A DNA stretch of 41,883 nucleotides from the IMG/VR virus record IMGVR_UViG_3300036715_002244, positions 1 through 41,883 of that record; one strand, given 5' to 3'. The translations under genes were made by a program, and so were the position numbers. How positions within the stretch are numbered: position 1 is the first letter of the stretch; every line of letters starts with the position of its first letter. The DNA comes from a virus. The notes below the pieces were generated by a model. It had not been told where the DNA came from, searched no databases, and saw nothing but the letters and a program-made list of their open reading frames with translations. Below are positions 1,582 through 39,624 of this stretch, in pieces.

Positions 1582-1635
1582 ATGGAAGGCAAGATAAAAA
1601 TAAAAGTTTTGGAGGATTATAAAAATGAAGATTGA
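1582..1635 (+). CDS. Possible 17-residue leader peptide overlapping the clamp start
   Basis: A short reading frame with an AAGGAAT site begins at ATG 1582, runs through the clamp ribosome binding site and stops 11 bases inside the clamp gene. Translating it would move ribosomes over the clamp start. Such a frame can arise by chance; the evidence is only the ribosome site and the overlap. Confidence 0.25.
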   Translation: MEGKIKIKVLEDYKNED

Positions 1636-2707
1636 GCTTAAAACGAAGGAACTAAACAAGATTATCCAGGATTTATCAAGAAACATCAAGAAGCACCCAG
1701 TAGAAACATTGAGAAGCATTCAAATATCAGCCAAAGATAAAAATATGATATTCAGAACTACAGATTTGGAAGCTGAGACTATTTATAATTTTGGCATTGA
1801 AGAAGATATAAACATAGAACCAATTCTTGTAGAATCAAGCGAGATATCAAGCTTAATTAAAAACTATCCAAGCGAGAATATCACATTAGAATTTGAGGAC
1901 GAAGAATTAAAAATAGAAGGAGAAAACATATCAGCAACAATACCAACAAAAAAAGATTCAAACTATCCAGAACAAATTGATATATCTGGAATAGAACCAA
2001 AAAAGATCTACTTCTCACTGATAAAACAAGCAATAGAAACAGTCGTCAACTCAAGCCCACAAGACGCAAATTCTAAAATGGGCGGGGTAAACATTAAGAC
2101 AAATGGCAAAGAGGTATCAATCGCAGCCACAGACGGCTTTAGACTGGCACTTTATAAAATGTATTTAGATGAAGAATTAGATATGAATTTTACTATATCT
2201 AAGAAGTGCGCACAGGAGATAATAAAATTTGATGTAGTATCGCTAATGTCATATCAAACAGATTCTCACTGGATACTGTCAACCAACGATAAAACAATTG
2301 CAGTTAAAAAACTTAATTATGAATATCCAAACTATGAGAAGGCTATCCCAACAGACAATAAACACAAGGTCGCTATTAATAGAGAAGACTTTATCAAGAA
2401 GCTATTGTTTGCATCGTCGCAGTCTGAATTGATAAAGCTAATCATAAAAGATAATGTTCTAACTGTGCAATCTTCAGACACAAGAATAAATACAAAAATA
2501 GATATTAGAACAGTGACAGAAGTTGCGGATATTGAATTCACATTCAAGTCACAATATTTAATTAGCGGGCTTAGGATTTTTGACACTGAAGATGTGCTAT
2601 TCACTTACAAAGATAACAATGATAAACCAATAACAATAGAAAATGAAGTCAAAACAGGTTATGTAAATATTCTTTATATAACAATGCCAACAAAACCAGA
2701 AAGATAG
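1625..2707 (+). CDS. dnaN: DNA polymerase III beta subunit-like sliding clamp (full length)
   Basis: 360 residues, the normal length of bacterial DnaN with three clamp domains of about 120 residues each. Recognisable parts are the domain I start, the junction SATIPTKKDSNYP, the domain II signature ATDGFRLALY (about residues 178-187) and PNYEKAIP before domain III. DnaN dimers encircle DNA and tether polymerases and repair enzymes. The start is fixed by TTGGAGGAT eight bases upstream. No polymerase gene is seen in the genome, so the clamp probably serves the host polymerase or recruits other phage enzymes. A shorter relative lies at 38095-38817. Confidence 0.9.
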   Translation: MKIELKTKELNKIIQDLSRNIKKHPVETLRSIQISAKDKNMIFRTTDLEAETIYNFGIEEDINIEPILVESSEISSLIKNYPSENITLEFEDEELKIEGENISATIPTKKDSNYPEQIDISGIEPKKIYFSLIKQAIETVVNSSPQDANSKMGGVNIKTNGKEVSIAATDGFRLALYKMYLDEELDMNFTISKKCAQEIIKFDVVSLMSYQTDSHWILSTNDKTIAVKKLNYEYPNYEKAIPTDNKHKVAINREDFIKKLLFASSQSELIKLIIKDNVLTVQSSDTRINTKIDIRTVTEVADIEFTFKSQYLISGLRIFDTEDVLFTYKDNNDKPITIENEVKTGYVNILYITMPTKPER

Positions 2708-31278: not shown

Positions 31279-31773
31279 CTATTTTTTCTTACTGTAAATA
31301 ATATTGTCTGGGATATCGTTGTAATTTATCCAAAAAAAACTTGCGTTGCTTGACGATGGTCTTGTGTGGCTTTTAATTATTTCTTCGTAAGAGTATTTGG
31401 ACAACCACATCAAAAAATCAAATGTTTTGAACAAATACCATTTTTCAATATCAGTCTCTTCGTTGTTCCAATATCCGTGAAAATAAAATTGAGTGCCTAA
31501 ATTAAATAATTCACCTTGTTCTTCCGTGAATCTATTTTGCAAACATTCAACTGTAAAAGTATTATATTTAACAAATTTGTTCCGTAAAACTTTTTCTTGT
31601 CCTATAAGTTTTATTTTGTTAGACAGTTCGATAACTACATCTATATGATATTGTTTATCTAAAATATTCCCCTGTGTTCTTACTATTTTACAATCAGGGA
31701 ACACTAATCGATATATGTTGTCTATTAGCGGTTCAGCTTTGTGCGATAACTCTAAATCATCTTTAAAACTCAA
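31279..31773 (-). CDS. Hypothetical protein paired with methyltransferase (possible nuclease)
   Basis: 164 residues. A YHIDVVIEL strand followed by KLIGQEKVLR faintly resembles a PD-(D/E)XK core (Asp, then QEK), but the spacing and final ExK are not convincing. It overlaps the methyltransferase by 11 bases. The pair could be restriction-modification, or it may be an unrelated small protein. Confidence 0.55.
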   Translation of the reverse strand: MSFKDDLELSHKAEPLIDNIYRLVFPDCKIVRTQGNILDKQYHIDVVIELSNKIKLIGQEKVLRNKFVKYNTFTVECLQNRFTEEQGELFNLGTQFYFHGYWNNEETDIEKWYLFKTFDFLMWLSKYSYEEIIKSHTRPSSSNASFFWINYNDIPDNIIYSKKK

Positions 31774-33154
31774 TTCTGCACCCCAGTGATTCGGCTATTT
31801 TTGCATTCTCTTCATTTATCTCACAGCCTACCGCTTGCCTTCCTAATTTTGCTGCTGCCGTTAGAAAAGTGCCTGTGCACGCAAATAAATCTAACACTTT
31901 GGCATTCGGTTCTGTTGTTTGTCTTATTAACTGCTCCGCAAGCTCTATAGGTTTTTGCCAAGTGTGGAAACGGTTACCCAACCTACCATCTGGCGCATTG
32001 AATTCCTGAACGGCAAATGTTTCGATTGCAATATTATTATGGTTTAATGGTTTTGAGTTTTTTGTATATAAGTGCAAAATAAATTGGTAATTTAAGTTAT
32101 ATTTATTTTTTGGCGGCAATAAATGAGTATTTTTATAAGTCCAAACCAATGGGTTGTCTAAAATAAATTTATCTTGGTTTAGTAAAATATCTAAATAAGC
32201 TTTGATTTCGACTGGATAAGCGCCTATAAAAATAAAAGCCCTACCATCGGATTTGATTTTTTTTAAGGCAGACAATACCCAAGAATTTGCAAAATCCACG
32301 ATATCATCAACATCTGTTGAATAAGGCGGATCAGTAATAAGCAAATCAAATTCTTCATCGTTTAAGGTTTGTAAGTAATCTCTGCAATCGGCTATATGGA
32401 TTACGGGTTGGTTGTTAGAAACATTAGAGTTCAGTCTGGATATATACTGTTGTTGCCTTTGCAAAAGCTTTGTATTATCTTTCCGCGCTTCTTTAATCTC
32501 TTTTGCTCTCTTAATAATCTCTCTCTCATCAAGGTTTTTAATAATCTCCTTTTGCTCTTCTTTTGGCAACTGCGATATTATCTCTGCTGTGTTAATAGTT
32601 AGCTTGCCGTCGGGATTCATAAGTTCTTGCTTAATCTCATCAACTACATTTGATTCAATCTTTTTAACTTTAAAAATAGTATCACGACTAATACCTGCTA
32701 ATTTTGCAAGCTCTTTGGCGGTGTTAATAGATTCGACAGTTTTGTCTGATTTCAGACTAAACTGTTCGGCATTATTGTTCGGGTTTAACTGCCTAGCTTT
32801 TTGCATCGCAAGCTGTTTGTTTTTTAAGGCTAATTCGGATAATGTTGATTCTAACTTTAAAACAAGTTGTGCTTTTGTATAATCAGTTATATTTCTGCGA
32901 CCTAATTGGTTTTTAATAATAAAGATAATCGCTTGGTTTTCGTCATCAAACTCAAGTTCTTCAAATGTAAAAGGTATATTGTGTTTTTGGCAAATTGCAT
33001 ACCTATTATGTCCGTCAATGATTATATTGTTCCATACAAGAATATGCTCTCTAACTCCGTGCTCTTTTATGCTTTCTTCCAAAATTTTAAACTCATCAGC
33101 TGTTAACGGCGGAATTAGATTTTTGAATTTGTCGTTGATTTTTAGCTCATTCAT
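31763..33154 (-). CDS. ParB-like domain fused to DNA methyltransferase
   Basis: 463 residues. Residues about 12-100 are a ParB/Srx-type nuclease domain (IIDGHNRYAICQKHNIP, GRRNITDYTKAQL), followed by a helix-turn-helix (145-165, LAKLAGISRDTIFKVKK) and a long helix. The C-terminal part is an N6-adenine/N4-cytosine methylase of beta order: DPPY at 275-278, then a DLFACTGTF S-adenosylmethionine motif near 425 and QAVGCEIN. Such fusions protect phage DNA from restriction. Target sequence unknown. Confidence 0.88.
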   Translation of the reverse strand: MNELKINDKFKNLIPPLTADEFKILEESIKEHGVREHILVWNNIIIDGHNRYAICQKHNIPFTFEELEFDDENQAIIFIIKNQLGRRNITDYTKAQLVLKLESTLSELALKNKQLAMQKARQLNPNNNAEQFSLKSDKTVESINTAKELAKLAGISRDTIFKVKKIESNVVDEIKQELMNPDGKLTINTAEIISQLPKEEQKEIIKNLDEREIIKRAKEIKEARKDNTKLLQRQQQYISRLNSNVSNNQPVIHIADCRDYLQTLNDEEFDLLITDPPYSTDVDDIVDFANSWVLSALKKIKSDGRAFIFIGAYPVEIKAYLDILLNQDKFILDNPLVWTYKNTHLLPPKNKYNLNYQFILHLYTKNSKPLNHNNIAIETFAVQEFNAPDGRLGNRFHTWQKPIELAEQLIRQTTEPNAKVLDLFACTGTFLTAAAKLGRQAVGCEINEENAKIAESLGCRIEF

Positions 33155-36140: not shown

Positions 36141-36172
36141 TTTACTTCCTCCTTTTATTTGATAATACAATT

Positions 36173-36201
36173 AAGATAACATAAAATACATGCATTGTCA
36201 A
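36173..36201 (-). promoter_or_regulatory. Leftward promoter for the regulatory operon
   Basis: TTGACA (36201-36196), 17 bases, TATCTT (36178-36173) on the minus strand, 33 bases before the ATG at 36140. Confidence 0.7.
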
Positions 36202-36268
36202 TAACAAAAAGCACTTAAATAAATTGTCTACAAAATCATATACAATTTAACGAACATTCAAAAAACTA

Positions 36269-36297
36269 TTGACAACATTTAAAATCCATGCTATAAC
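36269..36297 (+). promoter_or_regulatory. Rightward promoter entering gene-free region
   Basis: TTGACA, 17 bases, TATAAC. It points into 1.8 kb without a convincing gene and is back to back with the promoter of the ribbon-helix-helix operon. It may make a non-coding transcript across the repeat arrays or activate an origin. Confidence 0.55.
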
Positions 36298-36402
36298 TAA
36301 AGTTGAACCTAAAGCACGGAAGCTTTTAATATATATACGTAATTTCTTCGTTTTGCTGTGTTTTGCTTCTGCTCTTTGATGCGCTCCTAAAAAGTTTAAA
36401 AA

Positions 36403-36690
36403 ACTGTCGCTCTTGGCGTTCTTGGCGCTTTTGTCGCTTTTGGCGCTCTTGCTTTTGTCGCTTTTGTCGCTTTGCTTTGGTTCTTGTCGTTCTTGACCTG
36501 GTTTAGCGGAATTGTCAGACTATTCTGACTATTCTGACTATTGCAAAGATGTCAAAGGCGTCAGAAGCGTCAAAAGATGTCAAAAGCGTCAGAAGATGTC
36601 AAAAGCAAAAGCGTCAAAGGCGTCTTGTTAAAATTTTTTAAAAGCGTCAGAAGCGTCAAGAGCAAAAAGCTGTCAAGAGCGTCAAAAGCA
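36403..36690. repeat. Inverted arrays of GCGTCAAAAG / CTTTTGTCGC units
   Basis: The right half (36541-36690) has about 12 units of (GC or AT)GTCA(A/G)AAG in one orientation. The left half (36403-36498) has the opposite polarity, CTTTTGTCGC, CTTTTGGCGC, CTTGGCG. Between them is TCAGACTATTCTGA. Transcript from the promoter at 36269 could fold into a long imperfect stem. Confidence 0.8.
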
Positions 36691-36902
36691 CTTCTTTTTG
36701 TTGATAAAAATCAAATTATCGAATGTGGGCAGATTTTTTTTTGTTGCAGAATATTTTTTTTGGGAGTAAGAATTTTTTTTGGGGTAAGGGCTAGTCGCCT
36801 TTGTGTGTAAATCTACCATTAACCCAAGTAATATCTAATTATTTATTTAAGGTCAAGGTCAAAAGCAAAGCAAAAGCAAAGCAAAAGATAAAAGGTAAAG
36901 GG

Positions 36903-36976
36903 ACCTTAATTAATGACCAGCGAGTCAGTGGTTGTGGGTGGGTTGTCAGTGACTGACCAGTCAGTCAATTAAGGTA
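36903..36976. repeat. Palindromic TGAC/GTCA cluster
   Basis: CCTTAATTAATGACC on the left and CAGTCAATTAAGG on the right are inverted; between them lie repeated TGACCAG, GTCAGTG and GTGGTTGTGGGTGGG. Possible initiator or repressor binding zone. Confidence 0.5.
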
Positions 36977-37201
36977 AAAAGTGCTGATTTTTGCTTGTTT
37001 TAGGGGGTGCGGGAGCGAATAAAAAAGTAAAGTGCTAAAGTATATAATTGAAGATATGGCTTTGTAAGGCTGTTAAATAAGGTTAATGTGCGATATTTGG
37101 CTATAGAGAGCCATTTTAAAATTCAAAACAACGACAAAAAGGCACTCAATTTGTTAATTTAGTTTACATAAGCTTTAAAAAGTGCAATTCAGAATTATCA
37201 G

Positions 37202-37560
37202 TAAAACAACAACAAAAACAAAACAAATTAACAACAAAAACAAAAAAAATAAAAACAATAAACAAATCTAAAAACAAACAAATCTGAATAACAAAAAACA
37301 ACAAAAACAAAAACAAATCTGAATAACAAAAAACAATAAAACAAAATCTAAAACAAAAACAACAAACAAAAATAAAACATTAAATATCAAAACAACAAAA
37401 ACAACAAAAAGAATTCAAATAAAAAAAAATCTGAATAACAAATATAAAATCAAACAAAAAAAACAAAAACAATAAAACAATAAAACAATAACAAAAAAAC
37501 AAAACAAATTAACAAATTTAAAAAACAATAACAAAAACAAAAAACAACAAAAACAAACAA
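37202..37560. repeat. A/C-rich, almost G-free tract
   Basis: Only four Gs occur in 359 bases; the sequence is AACAAAAAC-type low complexity with three copies of ATCTGAATAACAAA (one slightly shorter match). Its plus-strand RNA would be unstructured and its duplex easily melted. Confidence 0.85.
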
Positions 37561-37704
37561 GGTAAAAGAACTTTATTTATTTTATTTAACTGGATAATAT
37601 ATAAAATATTTTTGAAGTATTTATATTTTTGGTTCAATAATTTGAATTCTTTAACTGTAAAAAAACAAAAAGCTTTAAGAATTTATAATAAAGTGCTGGA
37701 ATTG

Positions 37705-37718
37705 TCAGAATATTCTGA
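37705..37718. promoter_or_regulatory. Operator-like palindrome TCAGAATATTCTGA
   Basis: Perfect 14-bp palindrome 24 bases upstream of the -35 box of the first tandem promoter. A close variant, TCAGACTATTCTGA, is at 36515-36528. Likely a dimeric regulator site. Confidence 0.5.
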
Positions 37719-37742
37719 ATTGTCGGAATATTTAAAAAGGAC

Positions 37743-37770
37743 TTGACAAGTCGATTCACTATGATATACT
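37743..37770 (+). promoter_or_regulatory. Early rightward promoter P1
   Basis: TTGACA, 16 bases, TATACT. The -35 lies in CTTGACAAG, symmetric about its central A, and is followed by TC(A/G)ATT as in the promoters at 37870 and 39089. Confidence 0.7.
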
Positions 37771-37786
37771 ATAGGTATAGGGGGGC

Positions 37787-37862
37787 TATATAAACATATG
37801 GCTATATAACTATATGTTTATATAAGTCAAGCTTATCAATTGATAAGAAGGTCTTATCAATT
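37787..37862. other. Two leader hairpins between P1 and P2
   Basis: TATATAAACATAT and ATATGTTTATATA form a 13-bp stem; then CTTATCAATTGATAAG is a perfect 16-base palindrome, and its half CTTATCAATT recurs at 37853. They lie in the P1 transcript leader and just upstream of P2, so may act as operator or attenuator. Confidence 0.55.
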
Positions 37863-37869
37863 AAGGTAC

Positions 37870-37930
37870 TTGACAAGTCAATTAGATATGGTATACTTAA
37901 ATGTAGTAAGTCGACCATTGACAATTGAAT
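37870..37930 (+). promoter_or_regulatory. Early rightward promoter P2 with boxA-like leader motif
   Basis: TTGACA, 16 bases, TATACT (37892-37897), then about 20 bases later ATTGACAATTGAATAGGG, which resembles the boxA antitermination element of bacterial rRNA leaders. Transcript would meet the stem at 38003 before the clamp-like gene. Confidence 0.6.
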
Positions 37931-38002
37931 AGGGAGCAAAAAAAATTTAAAGAGTGTTTTTAAAAGATTATGTAAGGCTTTTACTTGCATAAAAGTTAAC
38001 AA

Positions 38003-38036
38003 GCCCGGGGCTTAACAGCCCCGGGCGTTTAGTGTT
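38003..38036 (+). terminator. Attenuator-like stem before the short clamp gene
   Basis: Perfect 10-bp stem (GCCCGGGGCT and AGCCCCGGGC) with loop TAAC, followed by a poor U-tract (GTTTAGTGTTT). It lies between promoter and gene, so it must be read through for expression. Confidence 0.65.
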
Positions 38037-38094
38037 TATTAAAGCTTTAAGTTTTAACAAGCACTAAAAAAAACATTTTTAAAGGAGTGTAAAA

Positions 38095-38817
38095 ATGGTA
38101 TTAGAAAAAACAGCAGTTGATGTAAGAATTTTAAAGCCCGTTAAAAGGGCTTTAAAAAAAGTAATTAAATTCAGTGATAAAAACACTGAAAAAAACATGC
38201 ATGGAGTAAATTTTAAAACGATTAACGATGAATTACTAGTTGCAACGACCGACGGTTTTAGACTTGTAATTTATACAATAGACATTAAACAAATACCTAA
38301 TTTAGAAATGAATTTTACAATTTCTATTAACGATGCTAGAAGGTTGTTAAAAGCTACAAAAATAATGGAATCATTTCAGACTGAATCTGAATTGGTTGTT
38401 ATTACTTCAGATTCAGAAATTAGATTAGCAAAAATTGAAAAACCTTACCCAAATTATTTAAAGGTGACTGAGCAAATAACCGACGACCTTCATTTTTCTT
38501 TTATGGTTGATAGAAAAAAGCTTTTAGATACTATTATCAAGTTTAAAGATACTAATTTGATTGAAGTATCTTTAAAAGATAATGCACTATATATTGAATC
38601 AGAAAAAGTTTATATAACAGCAACGACCGTTAAAGATTTTAATATTGAAATAAGACCTTCATTTTTAATTGAAGGTTTAAAACTATTTGATGATGAATTA
38701 ATTTATTTTTCTTATAAAAAAACTAGTAAATATTCTAATCATTATTTAATAGTGATGAATAACAGTGATATGTTTACTGATTATGAATGGATCCATTATT
38801 TTACAGCTTCTAAATAG
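38095..38817 (+). CDS. Two-domain sliding-clamp homologue (lacks DnaN domain I)
   Basis: 240 residues. It aligns with the full clamp (1625-2707) from domain II onward: KNMHGVNFKT against SKMGGVNIKT, TTDGFRLVIY against ATDGFRLALY, LEMNFTIS against LDMNFTIS, KPYPNYLK against YEYPNYEK, and a matching C-terminal block (IEGLKLFDDELIYFSYK against ISGLRIFDTEDVLFTYK). Domain I is absent, and a GGAGTG site just upstream of a normal ATG indicates a real start. Two-domain subunits could build a six-domain ring as trimers, as PCNA and T4 gp45 do. It is AT-rich, unlike the next two genes. Confidence 0.85.
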   Translation: MVLEKTAVDVRILKPVKRALKKVIKFSDKNTEKNMHGVNFKTINDELLVATTDGFRLVIYTIDIKQIPNLEMNFTISINDARRLLKATKIMESFQTESELVVITSDSEIRLAKIEKPYPNYLKVTEQITDDLHFSFMVDRKKLLDTIIKFKDTNLIEVSLKDNALYIESEKVYITATTVKDFNIEIRPSFLIEGLKLFDDELIYFSYKKTSKYSNHYLIVMNNSDMFTDYEWIHYFTASK

Positions 38818-38823
38818 TTGTAA

Positions 38824-38851
38824 GCCCGGGGCTTAACCCCCGGGCGTTTTT
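38824..38851 (+). terminator. Terminator after short clamp gene
   Basis: GCCCGGGG, loop CTTAAC, CCCCGGGC, then GTTTTT. Confidence 0.88.
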
Positions 38852-38894: not shown

Positions 38895-39094
38895 TTGACA
38901 ATTGGATATCGTCATAAATATATTTAAATATTTAAATATATTTTATTATAATATAAACATATTTAAATATATTTATCAGTGATCAAAACATCGTCCAGGA
39001 GCATATAAAACTTCATATATCGAATGTGGGCGAACGTGGGTAAATTGTGGGCATTAATAGATTTTATGGATACATAAATAATGCTTTGTTGACA
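38895..39094 (+). repeat. Promoter cassette repeat, copy A
   Basis: About 200 bases repeated at 40545-40740: a TTGACAATTG element, an ATTTAAATAT-rich stretch, the block CGTCCAGGAGCATATAAAAC, three GTGGG motifs, TTAATAGATTTTATGGAT, and the -35 box of a promoter. The following gene differs between copies. Confidence 0.9.
39026..39051 (+). promoter_or_regulatory. Phased GTGGG triplet, copy A
   Basis: GTGGG starts at 39026, 39036 and 39047, spaced 10 and 11 bases, so all face one side of the helix. The last ends 38 bases before the -35 box. A single related site (ATCGAATGTGGGC) is at 36718. Confidence 0.6.
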
Positions 39095-39157
39095 AGTCAA
39101 TTCACTATGGTATACTTAAATATAGCAAGTGACCTTTGACAACTGAATAGAGAGCAA
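39089..39157 (+). promoter_or_regulatory. Promoter P3 with rRNA-like boxA leader
   Basis: TTGACA, 16 bases, TATACT (39111-39116). Near +12 comes CCTTTGACAACTGAATAG, then AGAGC, similar to boxA of Firmicute and other rRNA leaders. It precedes the hairpin-rich gene at 39216. Confidence 0.6.
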
Positions 39158-39168
39158 ATTTTAGTATC

Positions 39169-39624
39169 TTCGAGCCCTACGGGGTTCGAAAATATTAAAA
39201 AAAGGAGGTTTTAAAATGACTTTTAATTTTAGTTTTTGGAAGTATGGCGACCAGGACGGCGAGAGCCGTTTTAGGTTGCAAAGCGTCACAACCCCAAAAG
39301 GGGTTATGCATCCTGCACGGGGTATTGACCTCGTGCAAGAAGTTCTCTCTACTGGTAGGGTAGCTACCTATCTTGTAGAGAGGTTGAACCACCAGGACGG
39401 GGTTAAGATACCCGTTCAGATTAGGGGCTCCATTCCAACAAAGGGGGTGGAATTGAAGTTCCAACCTTGCAAGGGCGTCTATGCTCTTGCAAGAGCTAAC
39501 AGGATCCCTGCAAAGGGGCTGTTTCTTGCTCCTGATGAGGGGATTCTGTTGTCGGACGGAGTCATTAATGCAATGGCTCCTGTAATAGGATAAATGAAGA
39601 GCCCGGAGCTTAACCGCTCCGGGC
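39169..39624 (+). other. Transcript segment composed of serial hairpins
   Basis: Helices found by eye, in order: 39169-39190 (9 bp), 39256-39269 (5 bp, GAGA loop), 39290-39305 (6), 39314-39337 (9), 39345-39382 (8, plus an inner 5), 39395-39417 (7), 39446-39466 (7, one bulge), 39466-39493 (11), 39502-39546 (7) enclosing 39514-39533 (6), 39558-39580 (9), and the terminator 39601-39624 (9). Many include G-U pairs. They hardly overlap and cover most of the transcript. It may be a structured RNA as well as an mRNA. Confidence 0.6.
39216..39593 (+). CDS. GC-rich early protein on hairpin-tiled mRNA
   Basis: 125 residues, unrecognised. AAAAAAGGAGGTTTTAAA before the ATG is a strong site like those of neighbouring cassettes, favouring real translation. 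The protein has no acidic or hydrophobic bias, with segments such as LVQEVLSTGRVATYLVERL and YALARANRIPAKGLFLAPDEG. The gene is visibly richer in G and C than the clamp-like gene upstream, which suggests separate origin or RNA-structure constraint. The opposite strand also has a long open frame, so coding status needs proof. Confidence 0.55.
   Translation: MTFNFSFWKYGDQDGESRFRLQSVTTPKGVMHPARGIDLVQEVLSTGRVATYLVERLNHQDGVKIPVQIRGSIPTKGVELKFQPCKGVYALARANRIPAKGLFLAPDEGILLSDGVINAMAPVIG

Follow-up and report, generated by a model that had tools for sequence, protein, structure and literature searches.

A phage-encoded sliding clamp paralogue without domain I alongside its full-length sister

Introduction

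Clamp rings are made of six domains, built either as dimers of three-domain subunits or as trimers of two-domain subunits, according to a review (PMC9690074). How one plan becomes the other is an old question. In E. coli, a clamp form without domain I, termed beta* (dnaN*), is said to be induced by UV and has been reported to be functional and possibly trimeric.

Short clamps of the bacterial type have also been recorded in phages. Escherichia phage Seurat gp31 (AIW03894.1, 246 aa) is annotated as a sliding clamp subunit, and the Seurat paper lists one (PMC4342423). The database record for Bcep781 gp15 notes a DNA Pol III b subunit fragment. Beta-type phage clamps with two domains are therefore already known, and the statement in the initial annotation that none had been described is contradicted by Seurat gp31 and by the phrog_3007 proteins found in many phages. 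As a class, these clamps met with no description in our literature searches, most subscription papers lying outside their coverage. Here, we focus on a virus which carries a clamp of this kind together with a full-length one.

A clamp paralogue without domain I

The window, meaning the whole stretch of DNA analysed, is the 41,883 bases of the IMG/VR virus record IMGVR_UViG_3300036715_002244. An identical 127-bp stretch is found at both ends, as expected for a complete circular assembly. Genes for a terminase, a portal and a major head protein are present, with weak library matches. The replication and recombination set consists of an Erf-like annealing protein, a Cas4/RecE-like exonuclease, a UvrD-like helicase, a DnaB-like protein, RusA and a protein resembling replication initiators; no DNA polymerase or clamp loader was found among the phage proteins scanned, a subset of the ORFs. 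A protein encoded at 31763-33154 has a ParB-like N-terminal part and a DNA methyltransferase C-terminal part. By terminase, the nearest named phage is Hydrogenobaculum phage 1 (TerL, 33%), which gave no PF02767 match. A TerL profile search of genome contigs found nothing. A search of Rfam returned no match above the gathering score. Two clamp genes were located:

1625..2707, + strand: P0001, full-length three-domain beta-type clamp of 360 aa, sister of P0002
38095..38817, + strand: P0002, clamp paralogue with domains II and III only, ATG start, 240 aa
38494..38814, + strand: domain III codons of P0002, about residues 134-240 (222-240 with low confidence), placed by the P0001 alignment and a structural model

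P0001 is matched by Pfam domains I, II and III, and its best solved relative is the clamp of Thermotoga maritima; a thermophilic host is possible. P0002 starts at the domain II boundary and aligns with domains II-III of P0001 by BLASTP (69/217 identical, 32%, E 6e-29), bearing out the initial proposal that this 240-residue protein corresponds to those domains of the phage's own 360-aa clamp. Matches were also obtained to the clamp central domain, Pfam PF02767 (E 8e-9, 36.2 bits, above the 27-bit curated cut-off), and to PHROG 947, DNA polymerase processivity factor (E 4.8e-15, profile positions 135-342 of 368). Judged by domain II homology, P0002 is a member of the bacterial-type (DnaN) clamp superfamily, and its conserved core motifs include TDGFRL and YPNY. 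The evidence for domain III is of a different kind, namely the alignment with P0001, which reaches residue 208 of 240, and an alignment-guided model. A joint profile of P0001 and P0002 recovered domain III with 91% probability, while this part of P0002 had no match to Pfam PF02768 and, taken alone, none to a profile of 47 viral clamps.

The Pfam search gave no match of P0002 to PF00712 (domain I). The initial annotation had named frameshift evidence for an upstream domain I as a refutation of its view. When domain I of P0001 and that of E. coli were compared by tblastn with 36171-38094, no match scored below E 0.4, and a frameshifted or split domain I there is rejected. Lacking both a PF00712 match and an upstream remnant, P0002 is to be regarded as a clamp paralogue and not as a canonical DnaN.

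Origin of the short clamp

Two trees were computed, neither of them with PCNA or gp45 rows. The first, of 39 rows, contained 24 of the 47 viral full-length clamps, 5 other full-length clamps, 8 phrog_3007 proteins, P0001 and P0002; the second, of 24 rows, included Seurat gp31. P0001 and P0002 are sisters in the 39-row tree (100/100) and pair again in the 24-row tree (100/100), long branches and the odd composition of these two proteins calling for caution on deeper nodes. The phrog_3007 proteins group together (97/98) in a separate clade beside E. coli DnaN. Placing P0002 in one clade with them is rejected (AU p 0.004), and no profile match to that family was seen at E 1. Grouping with Seurat gp31 is rejected as well (AU p 0.0004), a weak result in view of a Seurat branch of 5.9. 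Scans of viral and genome contigs with P0002 and of viral contigs with P0001, together with a two-sequence profile, found no close relatives.

P0002 is almost certainly a genuine paralogue of P0001, which arose by duplication or was acquired from a very close relative and then underwent clean loss of domain I and fast divergence. By the clades tested, the trees indicate that domain I was lost at least twice among phage beta-type clamps.

Putative expression signals of P0002

P0002 is a stand-alone gene and not part of an operon with the replication genes. Its surroundings contain the following signals:

37743..37770, + strand: sigma-70-like promoter, TTGACA-16-TATACT, -10 box preceded by TG, copy 1 of 3
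37870..37897, + strand: second, near-identical promoter copy, upstream of P0002
38003..38026, + strand: terminator-like hairpin downstream of both promoters and ahead of P0002, perhaps an attenuator (z -4.3 for 37990-38060)
38081..38087, + strand: ribosome-binding site AAAGGAG, 7 nt before the P0002 ATG, as read from the sequence
38824..38845, + strand: terminator-like hairpin after P0002, followed by GTTTTT
39089..39116, + strand: third, near-identical promoter copy, before the next early genes

The three promoters have TTGACAAGTC in common, with 0 expected by shuffling, and the left part common to them may also be an operator. With the hairpin at 38003-38026, absent from the initial annotation, lying between the promoters and the gene, expression of P0002 probably needs read-through. 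Three terminator-like hairpins (38003-38026, 38824-38845 and 39601-39624) flank the early genes and have a similar GCCCGGRGC...TTAAC core.

Further upstream, the cumulative GC skew reaches its lowest value near 36 kb, and the sequence from 36.2 to 37.7 kb is AT-rich and repetitive. The region at 36171-37700, which adjoins the skew minimum, is filled with repeats and without long ORFs; GTCAAAAGC-like repeats occur at 36400-36690 and an A/C-rich run at 37200-37560. The region, with the skew minimum beside it, suggests a candidate replication origin.

The codon use of P0002 resembles that of its phage, with a mean log score of -0.84. The scores of 21 phage genes run from -0.87 to -1.09, and those of the two alternative frames of this stretch are -1.04 and -0.95. 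A functionless duplicate in decay would fit the fast branch of P0002 in the 39-row tree (2.37 vs 0.97 for P0001) and its low third-position GC (0.17). However, the frame is intact over 240 codons at 31-32% identity to P0001, signals are present at both ends of the gene, codon use is phage-like and the core motifs are conserved, which makes decay very improbable. The initial view that P0002 is a real two-domain paralogue and not debris, since it has its own ribosome site and terminator, is strengthened by the upstream promoters and the codon use.

Predicted fold and DNA-facing surface

A two-sequence AlphaFold run of P0002 was poor (pLDDT 37.6). With an input of 49 sequences (P0002, domains II-III of P0001 and the 47 viral clamps), the model reached a mean pLDDT of 77 and a pTM of 0.69, with residues 222-240 below 50. 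It has four beta-alpha-beta-beta-beta motifs, equal to two complete clamp domains. By VIA-align 2 the model superposes on DnaN chains with Z 15-18.0 over ~215 residues at an rmsd of ~3 A, covering E. coli clamp residues ~120-366, and the top Foldseek matches are DnaN clamps. The VIA-align 2 rows listed included no PCNA or gp45 chain, an absence without weight. When predicted viral structures were compared, the highest ranks went to full-length phage clamps, and the proteins of Seurat (246 aa) and Xanthomonas phage Suba (222 aa) ranked lower. Because the alignment consisted of clamps, the model speaks for compatibility with the clamp fold and is not independent proof of it.

38122..38172, + strand: codons of the first DNA-facing helix of P0002, in domain II (model residues 10-26), net charge +7

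The four DNA-facing helices of the modelled P0002 have a net charge of +9 and the rest of the protein -9 (shuffle p 0.003; 12/240 circular shifts reach the value). For P0001 the charge at these alignment columns is +2, and for the 47 full-length clamps it lies between -3 and +5. On the model, these basic helices point to DNA contact rather than a peptide decoy. Such a decoy would be a monomeric P0002 which exposes nothing but its peptide pocket and titrates host proteins that bind clamps, a role conceivable for the phrog_3007 proteins. Those proteins (172-258 aa) are missing about half of domain III and nevertheless keep 12-18 of the 23 pocket positions compared. P0002 retains 7/23 of these positions and P0001 8/23; pocket residue P242 is kept in P0002. 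The pattern of P0002 is the opposite of theirs, with a complete-looking domain III, few pocket positions and no C-terminal Met-Pro, and it lies outside the phrog_3007 clade (AU p 0.004). A decoy is therefore improbable.

The domain III hairpin, which in the E. coli clamp faces the neighbouring subunit, is ~7 residues shorter in P0002 than in P0001. From the alignment, the interface could have been remade or lost.

Proposed assembly of the second clamp

The initial annotation had entertained a ring mixed from both phage clamps. Arithmetic excludes a closed one: for a subunits of P0001 and b of P0002, 3a + 2b = 6 is solved only by two P0001 or three P0002, and mixtures give 5 or 7 domains. A six-domain P0002 homotrimer (3 x 2) is the most economical reading. 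In the mechanism we propose, three P0002 subunits of two domains each would form a closed ring of six domains on the plan of PCNA and T4 gp45, kept on DNA by strongly basic inner helices. The ring could be loaded by the host loader or by itself. The altered pocket, with C-terminal Met-Pro lost, would bring in partners other than those that P0001 recruits, at an early stage of infection and close to the putative origin of replication. Homology, domain content, origin, expression-type signals and the charge pattern are shown by the data; trimerisation, encirclement of DNA, loading and the identity of the partners are all inferred steps.

The homotrimer on DNA is favoured because of the charge pattern and the complete domains. 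Further points for a ring are the four predicted motifs, the superposition on the E. coli clamp, the sister relationship to P0001 and the precedent of Seurat gp31. Counted against it are the shortened domain III hairpin, the partner-pocket tail, lost or unclear in the low-confidence residues 222-240, and the position of the gene outside any operon with replication genes. As no phage polymerase or clamp loader was seen among the proteins scanned, a second ring would be without an obvious dedicated client. A count of clamp-binding motifs in phage proteins showed no enrichment (loose matches 5 vs 7.7 expected; strict 1 vs 2.6). We tentatively regard P0002 as a second DNA-encircling clamp, a homotrimer with a partner set different from that of P0001.

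The main rival to a ring is a poison subunit, in which P0002 would use its domain III to bind the host clamp, or P0001, at the edge of domain I and leave a five-domain ring that cannot close, so that host replication is shut down or redirected early in infection. A stand-alone gene with strong promoters would suit this role, and mixed assemblies never reach six domains. Other phages attack the host clamp: Twort Gp168 occupies the clamp channel (PDB 7evp; PMC11223826), and overproduced Waterfoul gp48, a phage clamp, is toxic (PMC11797047 and PMC10700055). Known attacks of this kind, the early expression expected of a gene standing by itself and the shortening of the hairpin at the edge of domain III give the poison reading some weight. 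However, that hairpin is the very element expected to pair with the partner's domain I, and very basic DNA-facing helices would be useless in a protein-only poison. We consider a poison subunit rather unlikely.

If P0002 does form a ring that tracks DNA, it might activate late promoters. Any DNA-tracking ring could in principle do so, as gp45 does in T4 (PMC9690074). In a non-systematic look, none of the scanned proteins bore the name of a gp33 or gp55 counterpart. A transcription clamp is highly improbable.

Occurrence of short clamps and of the pairing

PHROG family 3007 is labelled RusA-like resolvase in a widely used library. By Pfam and alignment it holds clamp fragments (L090:7992-8573, L092:7986-8504 and L093:8001-8537) and is a domain-I-less clamp family. 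Its members occur in Bcep781 (gp15), Dhillonvirus, Klebsiella, Pseudomonas and other phages; the Bcep781 and TheodorHerzl genes lie singly within the cluster of head genes, on the opposite strand, in the manner of a moron. A tblastn search with one phrog_3007 protein gave 149 phage records, some full-length clamps included. None of the phrog_3007 records checked had a full-length clamp.

A search for domain I in nine short-clamp records searched whole, Seurat among them, found it in none, and it was matched in 3/3 full-length-clamp records. Conversely, a separate short clamp was found in 0/50 records with a full-length clamp (50 of 80 loci), one of which has two long frames. The 113-kb IMG/VR record behind locus L125 (G042) has two long clamp frames (459 and 480 codons) at 65985-66335 and 101925-102278. 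Among 27 terminase-related records (24 of 80 IMG/VR loci and 3 phages), 2 have a clamp, short in both. The Campylobacter phage A11a record MG065691.1 (L102) contains a dnaN similar to that of E. coli/Salmonella, which is probably bacterial contamination. Having P0001 and P0002 in one virus looks unusual in this sample, which is non-random, consists of records that may be fragments and could let a very diverged short clamp escape. As far as the searches show, P0002 is new in standing beside a full-length sister, in having an origin of its own and in its basic channel.

Comparison with known clamps

With a full-length clamp and its domain-I-less sister in one 42-kb genome, the conversion between ring plans, or a change from clamp to inhibitor, becomes testable with two small proteins. 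It is conceivable, if doubtful, that one phage has two rings from one lineage, a P0001 dimer and a hyper-basic P0002 trimer with divided tasks, and so an independent dimer-to-trimer conversion. Were this true, replication and another DNA task would be divided between the rings, with the three-domain form persisting in the same genome.

P0002 differs from each of the described systems in its own way. Domains II and III are homologous to those of bacterial DnaN and of the full-length phrog_947 phage clamps, of which P0001 is one, while domain I is absent. Seurat gp31 is likewise a beta-type clamp relative without the Pfam domain I (phrog_947, profile 94-365); unlike P0002, it adjoins a phage DNA polymerase and has no full-length clamp alongside, with no PF00712 elsewhere in the Seurat genome. 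The phrog_3007 proteins are also phage-encoded and start at domain II without domain I, yet they have about one and a half domains, keep the canonical pocket and belong to a separate clade. E. coli beta*, reportedly made from inside dnaN, has domains II and III as P0002 does, P0002 being a separate diverged gene. Finally, T4 gp45 and PCNA are trimers with two clamp domains per subunit, as in P0002, and the ring plan would be equal if P0002 trimerises. By ancestry P0002 lies outside the PCNA/gp45 branch, descending from a bacterial-type clamp as the sister of P0001 (100/100).
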